64,000 nucleotides of DNA from Acidobacteriota bacterium (GTDB taxonomy: Bacteria > Acidobacteriota > Terriglobia > UBA7540), in assembly GCA_902812465.1 (NCBI GenBank), contig CADDZE010000014.1:1-64000 (forward strand), in the 5' to 3' direction. The notes beneath the pieces were generated by a model, which searched no databases, was not told where the DNA came from, and saw only the letters and a program-made list of their open reading frames with translations. The position numbers and the translations under genes were made by a program. Shown one piece after another: positions 14,638-22,736 of the stretch. Each line of letters opens with the position of its first letter. Position 1 is the stretch's first letter.

Positions 14638-15822
14638 TCAAATGATGCGAAGCTTGCGGCCCACGCTCTCGAAGATGTCCAGCGCACGCGCGAGCTCTTC
14701 TTCCGTGTGGGTGGCGGTAACAATGGTGCGGACGCGAGCCTTGCCAACGGGCACTGTCGGGTAGCCGATACTCTGGGCGAACACGCCCGCCTCAAAGAGC
14801 TGGCGCGAGAACTCGTGCGCCAGGGCTGCATCGCCGACGATGACGGGCGTGATGGGGGTTTCGCTCATGCCGGTGTTGAAGCCCAGCTTCTGCAGCCCCG
14901 CTTTGAAGAACCGAGTGTTTGACCACAGCTTCTCGATCAGTTCGGGTTCTTCCTCCAAAACCTCGAAGGCCGCCAGGCAGGAAGCGGCCACAGCAGGCGG
15001 ATGCGAGGTGGAGAAGAGGAAGGGGCGGGCGCGGTGGTAAAGGAATTCGATGGCGTCGCGCGTGGAGCAGACGTAGCCGCCGAGGACGCCGATAGCCTTT
15101 GACAGCGTGCCGACTTGGATGTCAACCCGGCCGTGGAGGTTGAAATGGTCGACGGTGCCGCGGCCATGGCGGCCGAGCACGCCGGAGGCGTGGGCGTCGT
15201 CAATCATCATGATGCAGCCGTACTTTTCCGCCAGTTCGACCAGCTGCGGCAGGGGGGCAATGTCCCCGTCCATGGAAAAGACGCCGTCGGTGATGAGCAG
15301 CTTGCGGCCGCTGCGGTTCGCCACTTCCTTGAGAATCCGCTCGCAGGCGTCCACGTCCTTGTGGGGAAAGATCTTGATCTCGGCGCGCGACAAGCGGCAG
15401 CCGTCAATGATGGAGGCGTGGTTCAGCTCGTCGGAAATGATGACGTCCTCCCGGCCGAGGATCGCCTGGACGGTTCCGGCATTGGCCGTGAAGCCTGACT
15501 GGAATACCACCGACGCTTCGACCTGCTTGAACTGGGCGATCTTCTCCTCCAGTTGGAGGTGGATGGTCATGGTGCCGGCAATGGTGCGTACGGCGCCGGA
15601 TCCCACGCCGTATTCCTCGACGGCGCGCGCCGCCCGCTCCTTGAGCTTGGGGTGTGTGGTCAGCCCGAGGTAGTTATTCGAGGAGAGGTTGATGACTTCG
15701 TGTCCGTCGAAGTCAGCCACCGGCAGCTGCTCGGTCTGCAGCACGCGCAGCTTCTGGTAGAGCTTCTGCTCGCGCAGCTTATCGAGTTCATCCGCAAGAT
15801 ACTTCAGTTGGGCTTTGGGCAT
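14638..15822 (-). CDS. kbl: Glycine C-acetyltransferase (2-amino-3-ketobutyrate CoA ligase)
   Basis: A PLP enzyme of 394 residues that splits 2-amino-3-oxobutyrate with CoA into glycine and acetyl-CoA, the second step of threonine breakdown. Visible family marks are [12 protein letters not shown] near the N-terminus, the cofactor-binding segment [10 protein letters not shown], the Schiff-base Lys in [12 protein letters not shown] and [16 protein letters not shown] near the end. The ATG at 15822 has AGGAG just upstream and starts the conserved PKAQLKYL sequence; 17 codons of open frame before it are ignored. The dehydrogenase for the first step ends 34 bases upstream on the same strand. Together they form the classic tdh-kbl operon, here in tdh-first order. 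Confidence 0.93.
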
Positions 15823-15856
15823 GGTTCTCCTCAGAAGTGGGTGATGAAGCCTTCTC

Positions 15857-16912
15857 CTAAGCAGGACTGCCATTCGGGTAGAGCAGCACCTTGGAAGCGT
15901 TGCCGGAGAGCAGGAGTTCGACGCCGCGCTTGAAGTCGGTCAGCGGCAGGCGGTCGGTGATCAGCGGCGACAGATCCAGGGAGCCCGACTTCAGCAGCGC
16001 CTGCATCCTGTACCACGTCTCGAAGACGCGGCGGCCGTTGATGCCCTGCACCACCGCGCCTTTGAAGATAACATCATTGGCCAAGTCGAGCTCCACCGGC
16101 TTGGAAGGTATGCCGAGCAGGGAGAGGCGGCCACCGCGCCGCAGCATTTGGAATGCCTGCCGTACGCCCTGGGAGTTGCCGGACATTTCCAGCACCACGT
16201 CGGCTCCCACCTGATCAGTGAGGACTAACACTTCGGCCACCACGTCCGTCTTGCTGGGATCCAAAACCGCTGCCGCACCGACTCTTTCCGCCAGCTTCTG
16301 CCGGTAAGGATGTGGCTCGATCGCCAAAATCGGACCGGCACCGCAGGCCTTGGCCACGGCAATGGCCAGCAAACCGATGGGACCGCAGCCTACCACGGCC
16401 ACGCTCATGCCGGCCACTTCACCCGCCAGCACGGCGTGCACGGCGTTTCCCAACGGGTCGAGGATGGCCGCGTAATCGACGGGAATCGCCGGATCGATCT
16501 TCCAAATGTTGGTTTCGGGGATTCGCACAAACTCGGCGAAGCATCCATCCGTGTCGATGCCGATGATCCGGACGTTCTGGCAAATGTGGCTCTGTCCGGT
16601 GCGGCACTGGTAGCAGCGCCCGCAAGCCACATGCATCTCCGCGGAAACGAAGGCGCCCGGCTGCACCGTGGTCACCTCGGCGCCCACCTGCTCAACCACG
16701 CCGCAGAACTCATGGCCAAACACCAGCGGCGGATGAACCCGCCGTGCGGACCAGCGGTCCCAGCGATAAATGTGTAAGTCTGTACCGCAAATGGACGCCG
16801 CCTGAACGCGCACCAGCACTTCCGTGGGACCGACCGACGGCACCGCCACCTGCAGGATGTCCGCCCCCGGCTGTGGCTGAGATTTGACAACGGCTTGCAT
16901 GGTGACAGACAT
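15857..16912 (-). CDS. tdh: L-threonine 3-dehydrogenase
   Basis: A zinc-dependent medium-chain dehydrogenase of 351 residues that oxidises L-threonine to 2-amino-3-oxobutyrate with NAD. Catalytic-zinc ligands are in [13 protein letters not shown] and [11 protein letters not shown]. The structural-zinc cysteines appear as [15 protein letters not shown]. The Rossmann fold has [23 protein letters not shown] and MFE-like downstream segments distinguish Tdh from general alcohol dehydrogenases. The start is uncertain between ATG 16912 and ATG 16900; neither has a strong ribosome-binding site. The product feeds kbl, which follows after 34 bases. Confidence 0.92.
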
Positions 16913-17125
16913 GGTGTGCGGGCAAAGCACGAGTATAGAGGGTCCGCGAAGGTGAGTAAAGGGCGGTGAGAACGCGGTACAGCCTACTCACATCGTATCC
17001 CCCCTGTGGGGTCTCTCTGATCGGAGGCGAAGAGAGATGCCGCGCCGGTTCGAATTGCAGAATAGCCGCCTTGCTTGGCCCGGCAACCTGTGATGAAATA
17101 TAAATGCCATATAAGGTGAAGCGAA

Positions 17126-17461
17126 ATGGCTAGTGCCACGACGATCTACATTACGCCCCGCCAGCGGCAGCGGCTCTTCGCCCGCGCCAAGAAGCGCAAG
17201 ACCAGCTTCTCTGAGGAGTTGCGGTCTGCCGTCGAGCTGTATCTGGACCTCCCGCCCGAAGTCGATCAGGCGGCGTTTAGCGCCCTAGTGCGCAGGGCCA
17301 ACGAGTCCATGAAGCGCAGCGTGGCGCGCCTGGACGAGGCGGTGGCCCGTCTCCAGAGCGCCACCGCCAACCTCGAAACTTGCGAGCGCAAACTCCATGA
17401 GCTTGAGCAAAGACATCTACGACGCGCTGAAGAACGTGATGACCATCGAAGCGCGCCTTGA
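17126..17461 (+). CDS. Ribbon-helix-helix-like protein with coiled-coil tail
   Basis: A 111-residue protein. Residues 1-45 (TTIYITPRQRQRLFARAKKR ... SFSEELRSAVELYL) have the strand-helix-helix pattern of CopG/Arc-type DNA-binding antitoxins. The rest is a long charged helix (RANESMKRSVARLDEAVARL) likely to form a coiled coil. Its last 65 bases overlap the next gene, which is also mostly coiled coil, so the two are probably translated together and bind each other. No recognised toxin domain is present. The function is unknown; a two-protein DNA-binding or stress module is a guess. Confidence 0.6.
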   Translation: MASATTIYITPRQRQRLFARAKKRKTSFSEELRSAVELYLDLPPEVDQAAFSALVRRANESMKRSVARLDEAVARLQSATANLETCERKLHELEQRHLRRAEERDDHRSAP

Positions 17462-17645
17462 ACAAGTGACGCAATCGGTGGCGGCCATCTCCGAACGCCT
17501 AGAAGTCTTCTCCCGGCGCGTCACGGATCACTTGGGCGAGCAAGCGCAGCGCCTGGCGCGGCTGGAAGGCAAGTTCGAGCTGATTGAAACCACGCTGGGC
17601 TCCCGGCCGAAGCGGTTGCGTGGCGCTGGCGAATCGCACTCCTAA
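17397..17645 (+). CDS. Small coiled-coil protein overlapping the RHH gene
   Basis: An 82-residue protein (SLSKDIYDALKNVMTIEARL ... ISERLEVFSRRVTDHLGEQ ... LARLEGKFELIETTL) with heptad-like hydrophobic spacing over most of its length. It begins inside the upstream RHH gene in a different frame. No membrane segment or catalytic motif is seen. It could be a partner of the RHH protein. An internal Met (MTIEARLEQ) is an alternative start, which would remove the overlap by shifting the start to about 17439. Confidence 0.55.
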   Translation: MSLSKDIYDALKNVMTIEARLEQVTQSVAAISERLEVFSRRVTDHLGEQAQRLARLEGKFELIETTLGSRPKRLRGAGESHS

Positions 17646-17730
17646 ATAGCTTTCCAAGCCCGCCCGAACAGACAGCCACCTCCCGGCGATCGCGCGCCTG
17701 AAATTCCCTCCAAGCCCGGCGACCGGCGGA

Positions 17731-18900
17731 TCACTTGTATGCCGGGATCCCCGTCACACGCTCGCCGATGATCAGGGTGTGGATGTTGTGCGTACCTTCG
17801 TAGGTATACACCGACTCGAGGTTGCACATGTGCCGGAAGATGGGATACTCGTCGGCGACGCCGTTCGCTCCCAGGATGTCGCGCGCGGCCCGCGCGATGT
17901 CCAGCGCCATCTTGACGTTGTTGCGCTTTAGCATGGAGACGTGAGCAAAGTCGGCCCGGCCGCGGTCCTTCAACCGGCCCACCTGCAGGGCGAGCAACTG
18001 CGCCTTGGTGATCTCCGTAATCATGTCGGCGAGCTTCTCCTGTACCATCTGGTGGGAAGCGATGGGCCGGTCGTCAAACTGTTTGCGCGCCTTGGCGTAC
18101 TCGAGCGCCTCGTTGTAGCAGGCCATCGCCGCGCCGATTGCTCCCCAGCCGATCCCGTAGCGAGCCTGGGTGAGACAGCGCAGCGGGGCCTTCAGGCCCT
18201 GCGCGCCGGGGAGCATGGCACAGGCCGGGACGCGGACCTCCTGAAGCGCCAGGGTGCTGGTGACGGACGCCCGCAGGGACCACTTGCCCTTGATGTCCCG
18301 GGCGGTGAAGCCCGGCGTGCCGCGCTCCACCAGGAATCCTCGAATGCCATCGTCAGTGCGGCACCAGATGAGGGCCACGTCCGCGATGCTGCCAGATGTG
18401 ATCCAGGCCTTCTCCCCGTTGATCACATAGTGCTGGCCGTCCTTCACCGCACGCGTCCGCATCCCCGCGGGATTGGAGCCGAAGTCGGGTTCCGTCAGCC
18501 CGAAGCACCCAATCGCTTTACCCTGCTGCAAGGCGGGCAGCCAGCGGTTCTTCTGTTCCTCGGAGCCGTACTCGAGGATCGGGTACATCACCAGCGCCCC
18601 CTGTACTGACACGAAGCTGCGCAGGCCACTGTCGCCGCGCTCGAGCTCCTGCATGATTAAGCCGTATTGGACATTGTTCAGCCCGGCGCAACCGTATCCG
18701 TGCAAGTTCGCCCCATAGAAGCCGAGCTCCGCCATGATGGGCACCAGGTGGCGGGGAAACTTGCCTTCGCGGTTCCATTCTTCGATATGGGGCAGCACCT
18801 CGCGGTCGACGAACTCGCGCACTGTCTGGCGGACCAGTTTCTCCTCGTCGCTGAAGAGCGAGTCGATCTCCATGTAATCGACGCCACGGAAAGCGAACAT
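17731..18900 (-). CDS. gcdH: Acyl-CoA dehydrogenase, glutaryl-CoA dehydrogenase type
   Basis: A 389-residue flavoprotein predicted to oxidise and decarboxylate glutaryl-CoA to crotonyl-CoA in lysine/tryptophan breakdown. The catalytic Glu lies in YTYEGTHNIHTLIIG, as in GCDH, and the Arg that binds the glutaryl carboxylate fits GLRSFVSVQ. FAD/CoA-binding signatures GCFGLTEPDFGSNP and ITSGSIADVALIW are present. The ATG at 18900 is preceded by GGGAG at normal distance; a TTG start twelve bases upstream is less likely. It stands alone, with no lysine-pathway genes nearby. General short-chain acyl-CoA dehydrogenase activity cannot be ruled out. Confidence 0.88.
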   Translation of the reverse strand: MFAFRGVDYMEIDSLFSDEEKLVRQTVREFVDREVLPHIEEWNREGKFPRHLVPIMAELGFYGANLHGYGCAGLNNVQYGLIMQELERGDSGLRSFVSVQGALVMYPILEYGSEEQKNRWLPALQQGKAIGCFGLTEPDFGSNPAGMRTRAVKDGQHYVINGEKAWITSGSIADVALIWCRTDDGIRGFLVERGTPGFTARDIKGKWSLRASVTSTLALQEVRVPACAMLPGAQGLKAPLRCLTQARYGIGWGAIGAAMACYNEALEYAKARKQFDDRPIASHQMVQEKLADMITEITKAQLLALQVGRLKDRGRADFAHVSMLKRNNVKMALDIARAARDILGANGVADEYPIFRHMCNLESVYTYEGTHNIHTLIIGERVTGIPAYK

Positions 18901-19623
18901 GCCGTCTCCCAATAAGGCAGCCCGACCATTCTAGTGGCCGCGTTTGACGCGGGTCAAGGCGATGAGCTTCATGGCACAGCCTGCTCACACTATGTCGGCC
19001 GCGAGCCCTGCTGCCATATCCCCTCTGCCGCGCAGGCTGTAAGACTTGTCAGCTTTGGCTTCAATCGTGGACACGGTAAACTTCTCAGACGGCTGCCGCC
19101 CAGGAAGACGAGCCATACGATAGAGACACTGCACTTCCTTCCACGGCCCGAGGTGGGCAAAACATGGTGGCGGGCAGTGTTGCGGACGAAGAATGGCCCC
19201 TACGCATTTTCAATAACATAGTGGGATTCGCCAGAGATTACCAAAAAGTGTGAGACAAATGAGACGTTCCGGGTCTTTATTTTCAACAACATAGTAGGAT
19301 TCATCGCGGCCCAATTCTCTATCCAATCGTGTTTTCAATAACATAGTGGGATTCATTGTCAGCCACGGATTTTCTCACCGCATTTCGGCCATTTGAACGC
19401 CGTTTGACCGGTTGCCGGGCCGGCGGGATGGGAAGTGATACCTCAAACTTTTACCGTCCCAGTCTAGTATTACTTAGTAGTTAATAGCCTGTCAAACCCG
19501 CCGGCGCCCAGGCGCGGCCACCGCAATCGGCAATTGGCGGTCGGCCTTACCCCCGGAGTGCCTCGCGCTTTCAGGAACACCAGGGCGGGCATTGCCCCAG
19601 GACGAACGCGGCCCCCGCATCGA
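18901..19623. other. Long gene-free region holding three short repeats
   Basis: More than 700 bases between gcdH and the His/Met-rich membrane protein gene with no convincing coding frame. Its notable content is the three-copy repeat at 19207-19354, in a locally AT-rich patch within a GC-rich genome. Confidence 0.55.
19207..19354. repeat. Three direct copies of a 23-base repeat
   Basis: Copies lie at 19207-19229, 19280-19302 and 19332-19354. Each begins TTTTCAAYAACATAG and ends GGATTC; copies one and three are identical and copy two differs at three positions. Intervals are 50 and 29 bases. On the other strand each copy ends with TTGAAAA, like many CRISPR repeats, but the unequal intervals, the lack of cas genes and single related copies elsewhere in the window argue for a dispersed repeat. 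Confidence 0.8.
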
Positions 19624-21177
19624 TTAGCGGACCTGGGCGTCGAAAACGGCGGTCTCGATACGGCCGCTGCGTTTGATCTGGACGAAGATGCGGTAGTCGC
19701 CTGGACGCGGGAAGCCATAGGGGAAAGTCACTTCCGGGGGCAAGTGTTCGGGCGCCATGGACATGCTCATAGAAGCTACGGGGGAGGGCGTTGTACTCCC
19801 GGCAGTCACCCCAGGTGCGGCCAGGAGGCTGGACTGTGCGATTTCGACTGCTGCCATGGCCGCCGACCCCGCAGGGTGGACGTGGGCGAACACGCTCAAG
19901 TCGGAACGCACGAACTCAGCGTGCCCGGCCATTCCCATGTAGGGCTCGAGATCCTTCACCGGCTGGCCGCTGGCGTCCTCCACCTGAAAGCAGAACTCGA
20001 GCGGGACGTTAGCTTTCAAAGTACCTGGCGGCCGCTCCCACACCATACGTGCGCCGTCCGGCAGTAAAGACACGTTGGAAACCGAGGCGTCTGGGGCGAG
20101 TGGCGGGCCGGACCATGTGGCGTCGTCGCCTTCGAGCGGCTCCCCGGTTATGCGGGGAAGATCAACTTGGCCGACCAGGGTCTCAGGAAATCCGTTGGCA
20201 CGCACGATGTCAGCCAGCACTTTGTAATGACCGGGCGGCATGCCGGGCAGGTCCTGGACAAAGGTGGTGGTGCTTGTCCCGTCCGCAGGCCCTTGGGCTG
20301 CCCTACCGCCTTCCGCGACTGAGGCCACCCTGGGATGCAGATGGGCGAAGCTGTCCAGTCCGGTCGTGCGGATGAGGAAGAGATGCATCAGGTGCCCGTG
20401 GTCGGGGATCAAAGGGCCGCTCCGCCAGCTTCGACTCCTATGTCCGGCGAAGTCCGGGCTGCCCGGTTCGCTGAGGCTCAGGCGCAGCCGTTGGCCTTTC
20501 AAGGCGACGTCGAGCCAGGGGTTGTGGTAGACGTTGGCCGCGTGGACCCGGGCTTCTGAGTCCCACCATTGATCGCCAAGATAAATGGCACCGGCTATGA
20601 GCAAGCAGGCGACGACGGCGGCGCGGCGTCCCTTGCGCAGCTCTTGGTACCCAGGCTCAGCTCCAGGTGCGAGCATCCCTTCGCGTGCGGCGGCACCGGC
20701 AATGGAGACGGCGCTGGCGGCAAGGGCAAGCATCAGGAGAAACAGGAGGAGGCCCAGGGAGCGCTGCATGCGGAGCGTTCGCTGGGCTACTGCGGGAACC
20801 GGCACCGCGAGTACGCCCTGACCGCGCGCGCCGTCCGCCTCGACGCGCACCTGCAGCGAGCCGAACTCCATCAGCCAAAGGCTTCCGGTGAAGAATTGTG
20901 GATCGGATGGGGAGCGCTGGGCGATGTCGGGCACCGGCGGGTACTGAGAACCAGGACCCGTCAGGCGCAGCGGTACAATTCGGATCGTGCGCACGTCGGG
21001 TGACTCGCTGCGAATTTGAATCTCGGCCACGCCGGGGATCACCAGCGGCGGCCGGATGGTAACAAACAGGCGGTAGGGGCCAGCGTCACCTTCGTAGTAG
21101 ATGTCGGGGCTCCCGACATGAGGAAAGGCCGGCACCGCCGCCATCCAGATCAGCAAAAGGCTAAGTGGCCTGCGCAT
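19624..21177 (-). CDS. Membrane-anchored His/Met-rich protein, possible copper handling
   Basis: A 517-residue protein of unknown family. It has a signal peptide (LSLLLIWMAAVPAFPHVGSP), a beta-rich domain to about residue 130, two membrane helices (SLGLLLFLLMLALAASAV and VVACLLIAGAIYLG), then a large extracytoplasmic part. The second part contains metal-ligand-like clusters: DHGHLMHLF, FAHLHPR, MGMAGHAEF, FAHVHPAG and SMSMSMAPEH. The last 60 residues (FPRPGDYRIFVQIKRSG) resemble a YtkA/CopC-like beta sandwich. Periplasmic copper or other soft-metal binding is inferred. It follows, by 92 bases, a polytopic membrane protein gene on the same strand, so both may act together. Confidence 0.7.
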   Translation of the reverse strand: MRRPLSLLLIWMAAVPAFPHVGSPDIYYEGDAGPYRLFVTIRPPLVIPGVAEIQIRSESPDVRTIRIVPLRLTGPGSQYPPVPDIAQRSPSDPQFFTGSLWLMEFGSLQVRVEADGARGQGVLAVPVPAVAQRTLRMQRSLGLLLFLLMLALAASAVSIAGAAAREGMLAPGAEPGYQELRKGRRAAVVACLLIAGAIYLGDQWWDSEARVHAANVYHNPWLDVALKGQRLRLSLSEPGSPDFAGHRSRSWRSGPLIPDHGHLMHLFLIRTTGLDSFAHLHPRVASVAEGGRAAQGPADGTSTTTFVQDLPGMPPGHYKVLADIVRANGFPETLVGQVDLPRITGEPLEGDDATWSGPPLAPDASVSNVSLLPDGARMVWERPPGTLKANVPLEFCFQVEDASGQPVKDLEPYMGMAGHAEFVRSDLSVFAHVHPAGSAAMAAVEIAQSSLLAAPGVTAGSTTPSPVASMSMSMAPEHLPPEVTFPYGFPRPGDYRIFVQIKRSGRIETAVFDAQVR

Positions 21178-21269
21178 GGTTAGACTCGGGTAGCTGACAA
21201 GCGCTCCGCCCGGCGCGAAGCTCTGGCTACCGGTGGCCCATCACGGCCAGTCCTTGTGCCGGCTCCCGA

Positions 21270-22466
21270 TCACCTCCGCACGCGACGCATCCAGTCACCC
21301 CAAATCAAGCCTGCATGGCTGCTAGCCATGGCGATGCCCACCGCTTCCACCAGACCTCCCCAGAAGGCGAGTCGCGTGGTCTCAAAGGGATAAAAGCCGA
21401 ACCAGTAGGGAAAATTGGGATTAGCGAAATAAGGCAAATAGTGGGCACCGAAGAACCAGTTGCGCGCCGCCGGCGTCACCAGGAAGCTGGCGAAGGGATA
21501 CTGCGCGGCAACCAGCGTCACGACGAAGAGCAAGCCAGCCACCGCCGCCTGTCTTCCCTTGCCCCAGCTGCTCAGACGGAGCCGCAAGAGATCCACGGCA
21601 ATGCCCGGCACAATCAAGAGCACAGGAAATTCCATCGGGACGAAGTGCGTGACTTGGTGGTAGACGGGACCGAGCTTGGGTTCCGCCGGAAACAAAGGCA
21701 AAATCCAAAGCTGCCCGCATCTCCCGGCCATGTAAATTCCCGCGAGAATGGTGCAGGCCCAGCGCTGGCCCGATGCCCGCGCGACGCCGAGCAGGATAAG
21801 CGGGGCGCCGATCGCCAGGAGACGGTAGCAGCGGGCGCTGTGCTGGCTGAAGCGGCTGGTGTACTCCGCAACGACGATCGTGAAAAGTAGCAACAGCATG
21901 CCACCCATGTAGAGGAAGTGGCGCTGAAGCTTTTCGCGCAGGCCTCGGGCGGCGCGATTCATCGCTGCCAGGATCATGATCAACGCGCCCAGGTCAATCG
22001 CCAGGATTCCCGAGTCCAGCACCAGATGGGGAGGACTGAAGATCTTCACGTCCAGCCCGTAGGCGTTATGCCACCAGTTGTCAAACGGAGCGGACGTGAT
22101 CATCGCCACAGCGCCCCAGGCACACAGGAACGCTCCCAGCGGACCGCGGAAGCGCCAGACGGTCACAGAAGCCTGGTACAAAGCCGAGTCAGGATGGAGG
22201 GTGGTTGAGACGATCAGATAGGAACAACTCAGCCCAGCCAAGACGCCGCAGAAGTAGATCGCCATGTGGGCGGGTGTCCAGAAGGTATCGCGGCCGATCG
22301 TCATGTGCCAGGAGATGTCCCAGAATCCGCCCACAAGCGCTGACGTTACAGCCAGGGTCACCGACCGGATGTACCAGGGCGTGGAGACGGCTTGCGCGGA
22401 GACCGCATTCTGGGGCGCCCTGGAGGAGAGGGTAAGGTTCGGGGCTGCCGGGAGGGCTGTGGCCAT
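21270..22466 (-). CDS. Polytopic membrane protein of unknown function
   Basis: A 398-residue protein with about ten or eleven predicted membrane helices and no family that I can name. Conserved-looking His/Trp/Asp clusters sit at helix ends: FWDISWHMTIGRDTFW, TPAHMAIYF, APFDNWWHNAYG and SPPHLVLDSG. Their repetition suggests a metal or heme site within the membrane. The ATG at 22466 has AAGGAG seven bases upstream. The downstream gene encodes a His/Met-rich secreted-domain protein, supporting a shared metal or redox role. It could also be a transporter. Confidence 0.75.
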   Translation of the reverse strand: MATALPAAPNLTLSSRAPQNAVSAQAVSTPWYIRSVTLAVTSALVGGFWDISWHMTIGRDTFWTPAHMAIYFCGVLAGLSCSYLIVSTTLHPDSALYQASVTVWRFRGPLGAFLCAWGAVAMITSAPFDNWWHNAYGLDVKIFSPPHLVLDSGILAIDLGALIMILAAMNRAARGLREKLQRHFLYMGGMLLLLFTIVVAEYTSRFSQHSARCYRLLAIGAPLILLGVARASGQRWACTILAGIYMAGRCGQLWILPLFPAEPKLGPVYHQVTHFVPMEFPVLLIVPGIAVDLLRLRLSSWGKGRQAAVAGLLFVVTLVAAQYPFASFLVTPAARNWFFGAHYLPYFANPNFPYWFGFYPFETTRLAFWGGLVEAVGIAMASSHAGLIWGDWMRRVRR

Positions 22467-22736
22467 CAAGCACTCCTTTTCCCCCAACGCAGGATAGCAT
22501 AACAAGAGCCAGGCGACACTGCCAGCGGGCCGCTCCAGACTGGCGCTGAATGGGCGGGCGGTACGAGGCCTGCGCGCCGAATTTCTTCAAGCCGCGGTTC
22601 AGGGCGGGGATGGCGGGCCTTGCACTCGGCGCCGCAACGCCCTGGCGCGACTGTGCTATTGTGAGACGCGCCACAGGTGCTCCGCCCGTGGTCGTCGCCG
22701 CGGGTCTGCCCGGGGAGTCGCGCTGGAGCCGGTCAG

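Follow-up and report, generated by a model that had tools for sequence, protein, structure and literature searches.

The first step in the aerobic oxidation of methane and ammonia is catalyzed by copper membrane monooxygenases (CuMMOs), for which surveys usually target pmoA/amoA. For PmoC of particulate methane monooxygenase (pMMO), the part of PMC12576850 that deals with the copper sites describes a CuC site formed by Asp156, His160 and His173, a CuD site formed by Asn227, His231 and His245, and a hydrogen bond of Arg165 near the copper sites. For new archaeal CuMMOs, the C-site is reported to be fully conserved and the so-named D-sites not to be required, in the part of PMC9038741 devoted to them. 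This paper will focus on two neighboring genes, here designated P1 and P2, in a 64,000-nucleotide stretch of DNA from an Acidobacteriota bacterium (the window; contig CADDZE010000014.1), which a preliminary description had read as an undescribed two-part copper or redox-metal system. With a probability of roughly 0.55, the two proteins together constitute a membrane copper complex from a distant branch of the CuMMOs, which would have oxygenase activity. Homology of P1 to the CuMMO superfamily, taken by itself, is likely, and is held with high confidence.

P1 (21270..22466, minus strand, like all features of the window given below) encodes a membrane protein of 398 aa, and P2 (19624..21177, 517 aa) an exported, membrane-anchored, His-rich partner. 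Both frames are open at the place where they had been noted, with an ATG at 22466 as the start of P1 and a gap of 92 bases between P1 and P2. The predicted model of P1 (mean pLDDT, predicted local distance difference test, 92.4) consists of ten helices, in agreement with the ten to eleven counted before. The second half of P1 appears to adopt the fold of PmoA (Z 14-15), and P1 was therefore read as a fusion of a PmoC core and a PmoA-like part.

P1 contains two clusters which read WDISWH..GRDTFWTPAH and FDNWWH..GLD...SPPH. Conservation was counted in an alignment of 81 rows for P1, from which a decayed copy in locus L009 was left out, and in one of 65 rows for P2. D50, W53, H54, G58, R59, D60 and H67 of the first cluster and D129, W131, W132, H133, G137, D139 and H147 of the second were each identified in 81/81 homologues, so that the repeated His/Trp/Asp clusters remarked on earlier are invariant at 14 positions. 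H209 is likewise invariant in this alignment and, by eye, is lost in the distant homologue L215. The first cluster holds a CuC-like ligand set, D50, H54, (R59) and H67 (22266..22319), corresponding to D156, H160, R165 and H173 of PmoC, and the second a CuD-like set, D129, H133 and H147 (22026..22082), corresponding to N227, H231 and H245. The offsets are the same as in PmoC, namely, 0, 4, 9 and 17 for CuC with the Arg and 0, 4 and 18 for CuD; the Asp, His, His arrangement at Dx3Hx12H, which marks the CuC ligands of a CuMMO C subunit, is present in all 81 rows. In the distant pair L215, of which the two proteins are 33% and 25% identical by BLAST, both P1 motifs occur at exact spacing. The two-motif spacing pattern, which was picked after the match was known, was found in 215 of 8185 open reading frames (ORFs) of the collected DNA (126 P1-like, 88 PmoC/AmoC, and 1 other, with overlapping loci counted repeatedly), compared to 1 of 8185 after one shuffling. 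The copy in L009 (genome G119, 1435-2652), which lies beside an open P2, contains an in-frame TAG and an Asn for the invariant Asp50, and is probably a decaying gene.

The similarity to PmoC/AmoC extends beyond the ligands to residues 28-171 of P1 (21954..22385), four helices covering the copper-site region. By HHalign, P1 27-178 was aligned onto PmoC 107-257 with an E-value of 2.6e-4 and 20% identity, and the first part of P1 alone scored 38.9 in comparison to 21.9 for the highest of 26 decoys. A hidden Markov model (HMM) for PmoC/AmoC was built from 20 sequences, 7 from plasmids and 13 viral ones that remained when a set of 80 was thinned. This HMM found 47 of the 81 P1 proteins at E<=0.01; the number fell to 12 at 1e-4 and rose to 74 at 1 (best 6e-8). 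Among 1053 shuffled or reversed decoys there were none at E<=0.01 and 11 at 1, the best at 0.017. Both P1 motifs were in register within one alignment to it. The Pfam family matched by most P1 members was AmoC PF04896 (16/81, best E 7.7e-5), and in NCBIfam NF041641 (19/81, best 7.7e-6) and TIGR03078 (11/81) led. The single NCBIfam match of the P1 in the window was AmoC, with an E-value of 0.18. In the genome of the window, the sole match of the AmoC model was the first motif of P1, below the cut-off, and no canonical pmoA, pmoB or amoC was found over the cut-off. The P1 family profile matched none of the PDB sequences at E<=10. A query with HmoC gave no match in viral contigs or phages, while an alignment of PmoC proteins as query found viral pmoC/amoC.

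Residues 172-398 of P1 (21273..21953) appear by VIA-align to have a PmoA/AmoA-like fold. Chains of 12 pMMO and ammonia monooxygenase (AMO) entries lead the matches with Z 14.0-15.2, and we take them to be PmoA/AmoA from their length and chain letter. In these rows, 195-212 residues are aligned with a root-mean-square deviation of 3.7-4.8 A and 8-12% identity; the aligned range is about 171-398 in four rows and starts at residue 17-19 in eight of the 12. The next unrelated entry is an energy-coupling factor S-component with Z 10.5. HHalign placed P1 280-329 weakly onto HmoA 126-174, which roughly matches the position counted from the structural alignment. PF02461, the PmoA/AmoA family, had no match at E<=0.01 in the genome of the window or in 120 relatives. 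The PmoC part of P1 is thus supported by sequence and the PmoA part by fold, a parentage beyond what the preliminary description could see.

In the model of P2 (pLDDT 88.8), a beta domain comes first, followed by a pair of membrane helices and then by another two beta domains. A putative signal peptide of residues 1-19 (21121..21177), assigned from the sequence and its homologues, is followed by the first domain, residues 20-132 (20782..21120), which begins at the invariant His20, and by the two helices in residues 139-214 (20536..20763). Two clusters lie in the remainder, DHGHLMH...HLHP at residues 259-282 (20332..20403) and YMGMxxH...HxHP at residues 413-435 (19873..19941). Found in 65/65 rows were H20, D25, M103, H260, H265, H279, H281, M416, H419, H432 and H434, while M264 is present in 64/65 and H262 in 60/65. 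Of the His/Met clusters proposed before, H260, H265 and both HxHP pairs (H279/H281 and H432/H434) were therefore borne out. This did not extend to the MSMSM run at residues 470-474 (19756..19770), a low-confidence loop overlapping a stretch with pLDDT<50 (464-473), in which M470 is a Met in 17/65 rows and a gap in 44/65, and M474 is a Met in 39/65. In P2 of L215, inspection by eye finds the leading His retained, together with the counterparts of H262, M264, H265 and H279; conservation in this distant homologue, by which the clusters were to be judged, thus holds for the P1 motifs and only partly for those of P2.

Relatives of P1 were also identified on actinobacterial plasmids. A tblastn search of plasmids with P1 gave 8 records at E<=1, of which seven loci were taken, the eighth scoring the same as the first. 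Six proteins from these loci (P0006-P0011) contain a P1-like body, aligned by HHalign to the P1 family with an E-value of 6e-27. Both motifs are present at exact spacing in five of the six; in the sixth, P0011, the first motif is longer by two residues. A domain starting with AHDPGQG closes each of the former five proteins; it matches the first domain of P2 (27.6 compared to 15.8 for the highest of 20 decoys) and not the other two P2 beta domains. Since these chains fuse a P1-like body to an end resembling the first domain of P2, P1 and P2 are expected to work together. AmoC was a weak match for two of the six proteins (E 0.044 and 0.094), and the PmoC/AmoC HMM found one of the six at E<=0.01. 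In the annotation of the seven loci, the protein is a hypothetical protein in six and unannotated in one. On a Rubrobacter marinus plasmid (L185, 7892-9019), the P1-like stretch has an unannotated start and apparently lies in two frames. A classical CuMMO operon with the genes C, A and B shares plasmid pMYCCH.01 of Mycolicibacterium chubuense NBB4 (L186, L096) with a one-chain P1-like protein encoded elsewhere on it.

P1 is present in 10 of 121 genomes (the genome of the window and its 120 relatives) and in 22 of 396 genomes drawn across its phylum. One scan of a genome collection gave at least 550 P1 relatives, from which the 80 best loci, mostly Acidobacteria-titled, were taken for comparison. 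In 68 of them, P1 is followed by P2 (in L022 the P2 frame is broken, and some contigs end inside P2), and in a first genome search P2 was found in all 11 distinct loci. One further locus of the 80 ends before P2 could be read. A conserved third gene was sought by clustering ORFs of >=110 aa in the 80 loci, and the clusters present in most of them were P1, P2 and antisense shadows. The next commonest neighbor family is a short-chain dehydrogenase/reductase (SDR). It abuts P2 in 11 loci (L014, L019, L020, L021, L022, L025, L032, L035, L057, L063 and L074) with 60-87% mutual identity, and L047 has the same kind elsewhere; in the window, no SDR directly follows P2.

For the mechanism, P1 would likely combine, within a single chain, a copper-binding core of PmoC/AmoC descent with a half resembling PmoA/AmoA, and the two ligand sets, located where its first four helices end, would likely hold copper as in CuC and CuD. 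Judged by loop charges, the metal motifs of P1 and P2 would lie on the outer face. P2 may stand in the place of PmoB, its domains with the His/Met clusters loading copper or passing electrons. Since the CuC/CuD positions are kept, O2 might be activated at this site and a small or lipophilic substrate hydroxylated; such oxygenase activity of P1-P2 is slightly favored. In some genomes, an alcohol product could pass to the SDR encoded directly after P2, which would suit such a product, although SDRs are common. More tentatively, and with the odds somewhat against it, P1-P2 may be a major CuMMO branch in which C and A are fused, B is replaced by a CopC-like partner, and the enzyme acts as an oxygenase on an overlooked substrate in Acidobacteriota, with a one-chain form in Actinobacteria.

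A number of observations weigh against a CuMMO-like oxygenase. At the CuD position, Asp129 replaces Asn227 of PmoC in 81/81 rows, at exact spacing. The P1 in the window scored 12.4 bits with PF04896, below the cut-off of 26.7, and DUF6410 matched 4/81 P1 members with an equally good E-value (5.7e-5). Among the actinobacterial proteins, P0009 matched an acyltransferase model (3.4e-5) better than AmoC. For the fold of P1, two pMMO chains were the best Foldseek matches, at E-values of only 0.04-0.08. The PmoC half reached only Z 6.3 with 7s4m_C in VIA-align (P1 23-175), next to TRPV rows at about 7, indistinct from other helical bundles. For the PmoA half, the HHalign score of 24.1 compared to 20.5 for the highest decoy gives little support by sequence. 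P2 of L215 lacks the equivalents of H260 and H281 and the entire second cluster, and a free N-terminal His is doubtful for P2 of the window, since the residue before His20 is a Pro, the only one among the 49 rows covering this column. The SDR family is found in no more than 20 of the 80 loci. In 11 of the 80 loci, P1 has no P2 behind it; ten of these (L031, L033, L038, L053, L059, L062, L064, L065, L077 and L081) fall together in the tree, within a supported clade that comprises 11 rows, and a stand-alone paralogue is possible, since P1-P2 pairs also came from some of the same assemblies (for example, L038 and L054).

The main rival is that P1-P2 is a copper-handling complex of CuMMO ancestry without oxygenase activity, serving uptake, export, sequestration or delivery in a role like that of CopC-CopD. 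It draws this standing from the likeness of one domain to CopC and from the gene surroundings in actinobacteria, and we regard it as possible and rather unlikely. For P2 23-129, VIA-align gave CrdA 9ll2 with Z 9.7 and CopC 5icu with Z 8.0 among the best folds, with unrelated immunoglobulin (Ig)-like rows reaching 9.1 between them, and CrdA was the sole, weak match of the P2 profile in PDB sequences (E 0.85). CrdA is described in the relevant part of PMC9182242 as having no His and a Met-rich loop. The His/Met clusters of P2 would suit a transfer of Cu(I). Copper, cupredoxin, multicopper, heavy-metal or CopC products were identified in five of the seven plasmid loci (L183 and L186-L189), in comparison to one of seven arbitrarily chosen control stretches of the same plasmids (L229); L184 offers no more than a BlaI/MecI/CopY regulator and a YHS protein, and L185 nothing of the kind. 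However, an exact spacing of CuC, CuD and the Arg would hardly be needed by a transporter, and no copper family was identified next to P1-P2 in Acidobacteriota, where the SDR follows P2 in the loci given above. This holds for 25 of 30 and 25 of 57 Pfam families listed, from 67 of the 68 picked downstream ORFs (one was a piece of P2 and was omitted) and 62 upstream ORFs, many of which are likely spurious frames.

Far less probable is a redox or respiratory membrane protein with convergent PmoC-like copper ligands. Caa3 oxidase (Z 8.2) and CcmF occur lower in the fold lists of P1, and the PmoA match comes from a predicted helical model, for which a Z near 14 may be background, since the best Z is about 14 even for helical models that match nothing clearly. 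Convergence would, however, require the seven-residue spacing, the outcome of the HMM controls and the fold of a second CuMMO subunit all to be coincidental. The likeness of the two P1 motifs (Dx3Hx5Dx6/7H; D-x3-H-x12/13-H) had suggested that a single metal site was duplicated within the protein; this reading was dropped as very improbable, because each motif aligns to a different PmoC motif, in order and with the same H-x12-H and H-x13-H, and PmoC itself has both.

Apart from the gene pair, an AAGGAG resembling a ribosome-binding site was read in the sequence six bases 5' of the P1 start (22473..22478). Downstream of P2, on the same strand (14638-18912), genes for a pyridoxal phosphate enzyme, a zinc alcohol dehydrogenase and an acyl-CoA dehydrogenase were identified. 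A transfer RNA was the only Rfam match at gathering thresholds. A weak PADLOC match of P1 as a 4TM (four-transmembrane) effector (E 0.016) was taken as chance. On Nitrosomonas and Methylocystis plasmids (L099, L101 and L102), amoC was seen with no annotated amoA/amoB beside it, and tblastn of the A and B subunits on plasmids matched neither Nitrosomonas nor Methylocystis.

No description of such genes was found in the titles and opening abstract lines returned by full-text searches of the literature, of which preprints and most subscription papers were outside the scope. The two proteins had no Pfam match at E<=1 and no Pfam or NCBIfam family covers them at its cut-off; a CuMMO parentage with a new architecture is likely. 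As an undescribed two-part copper system, the pair had been judged in the right direction, given its recurrence, the invariant His, the CrdA and CopC fold matches of P2 and the copper or heavy-metal genes of the actinobacterial loci, apart from the Met cluster and the part of the P2 clusters lost in L215. A branch invisible to the pmoA model (no PF02461 in the 121 genomes, 10 of which contain P1) would widen the range of the superfamily, and a form with fused C and A parts and a different copper partner would serve as a natural test of what the copper chemistry requires, a matter still debated for pMMO.

Several families were considered for P2. For CopC (PF04234), no match was found for P2 itself, and the family was not among 25 of 28 listed for the 65 members at E<=10. 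YtkA and FixH did not match P2 itself either; YtkA matched 2/65 members (best 0.05) and FixH 1/65 (0.27), which leaves the YtkA part of the earlier label weak. P2 as a true homologue of PmoB was rejected, since HHalign of the whole protein scored 24.9 compared to 25.6 for the highest decoy, which also tells against the proposed complex. When pieces of P2 (N+TM, TM, C1 and C2, TM denoting the membrane helices) were compared with four PmoB, N+TM and C2 without decoys, only a marginal match of C1 was obtained near HLHP (23.3 compared to 22.3 for the highest decoy). No PmoB chain occurs among the 50 Foldseek and VIA-align rows listed for P2, which are filled by Ig-like entries; this excludes nothing and is not a test for PmoB. 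PF04744 had no match at E<=0.01 in the genome of the window and one sub-threshold match in the 121 genomes (G049), a PmoB-type subunit, with two cupredoxin domains and the CuB His brace, was not recovered, the likeness of P2 being one of layout only, and AmoB was not among the 25 NCBIfam families found for the P2 family.

In comparison to the described systems, P1 shares with PmoC/AmoC (PF04896) the CuC/CuD positions with the Arg165 spacing, the order of the motifs and, in many members, similarity to the HMM; it differs in having Asp for Asn227, in that the region N-terminal to CuC is mostly missing (D50 compared to D156) and in that the chain runs on into a second part. With PmoA/AmoA (PF02461) it appears to share the fold over about 200 residues of its second half, which in P1 is fused to the C part. 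P2 resembles PmoB/AmoB (PF04744) in being exported, in the placement of a membrane-helix pair between a beta domain and one or more others, in its HxH motifs, and in a His that, as in HmoB, comes directly behind the signal-peptide region. It differs by three beta domains instead of two and by HxH motifs which lie in other domains, with none in the first, two points that add to those held against the proposed complex, and also by a first domain that is CrdA/CopC-like. The first domain resembles CopC/CrdA in fold and, unlike these, sits within a larger membrane protein. Instead of the three genes for C, A and B which mark a CuMMO, two genes, P1 and P2, are present here, and a single chain serves in the actinobacterial plasmids.

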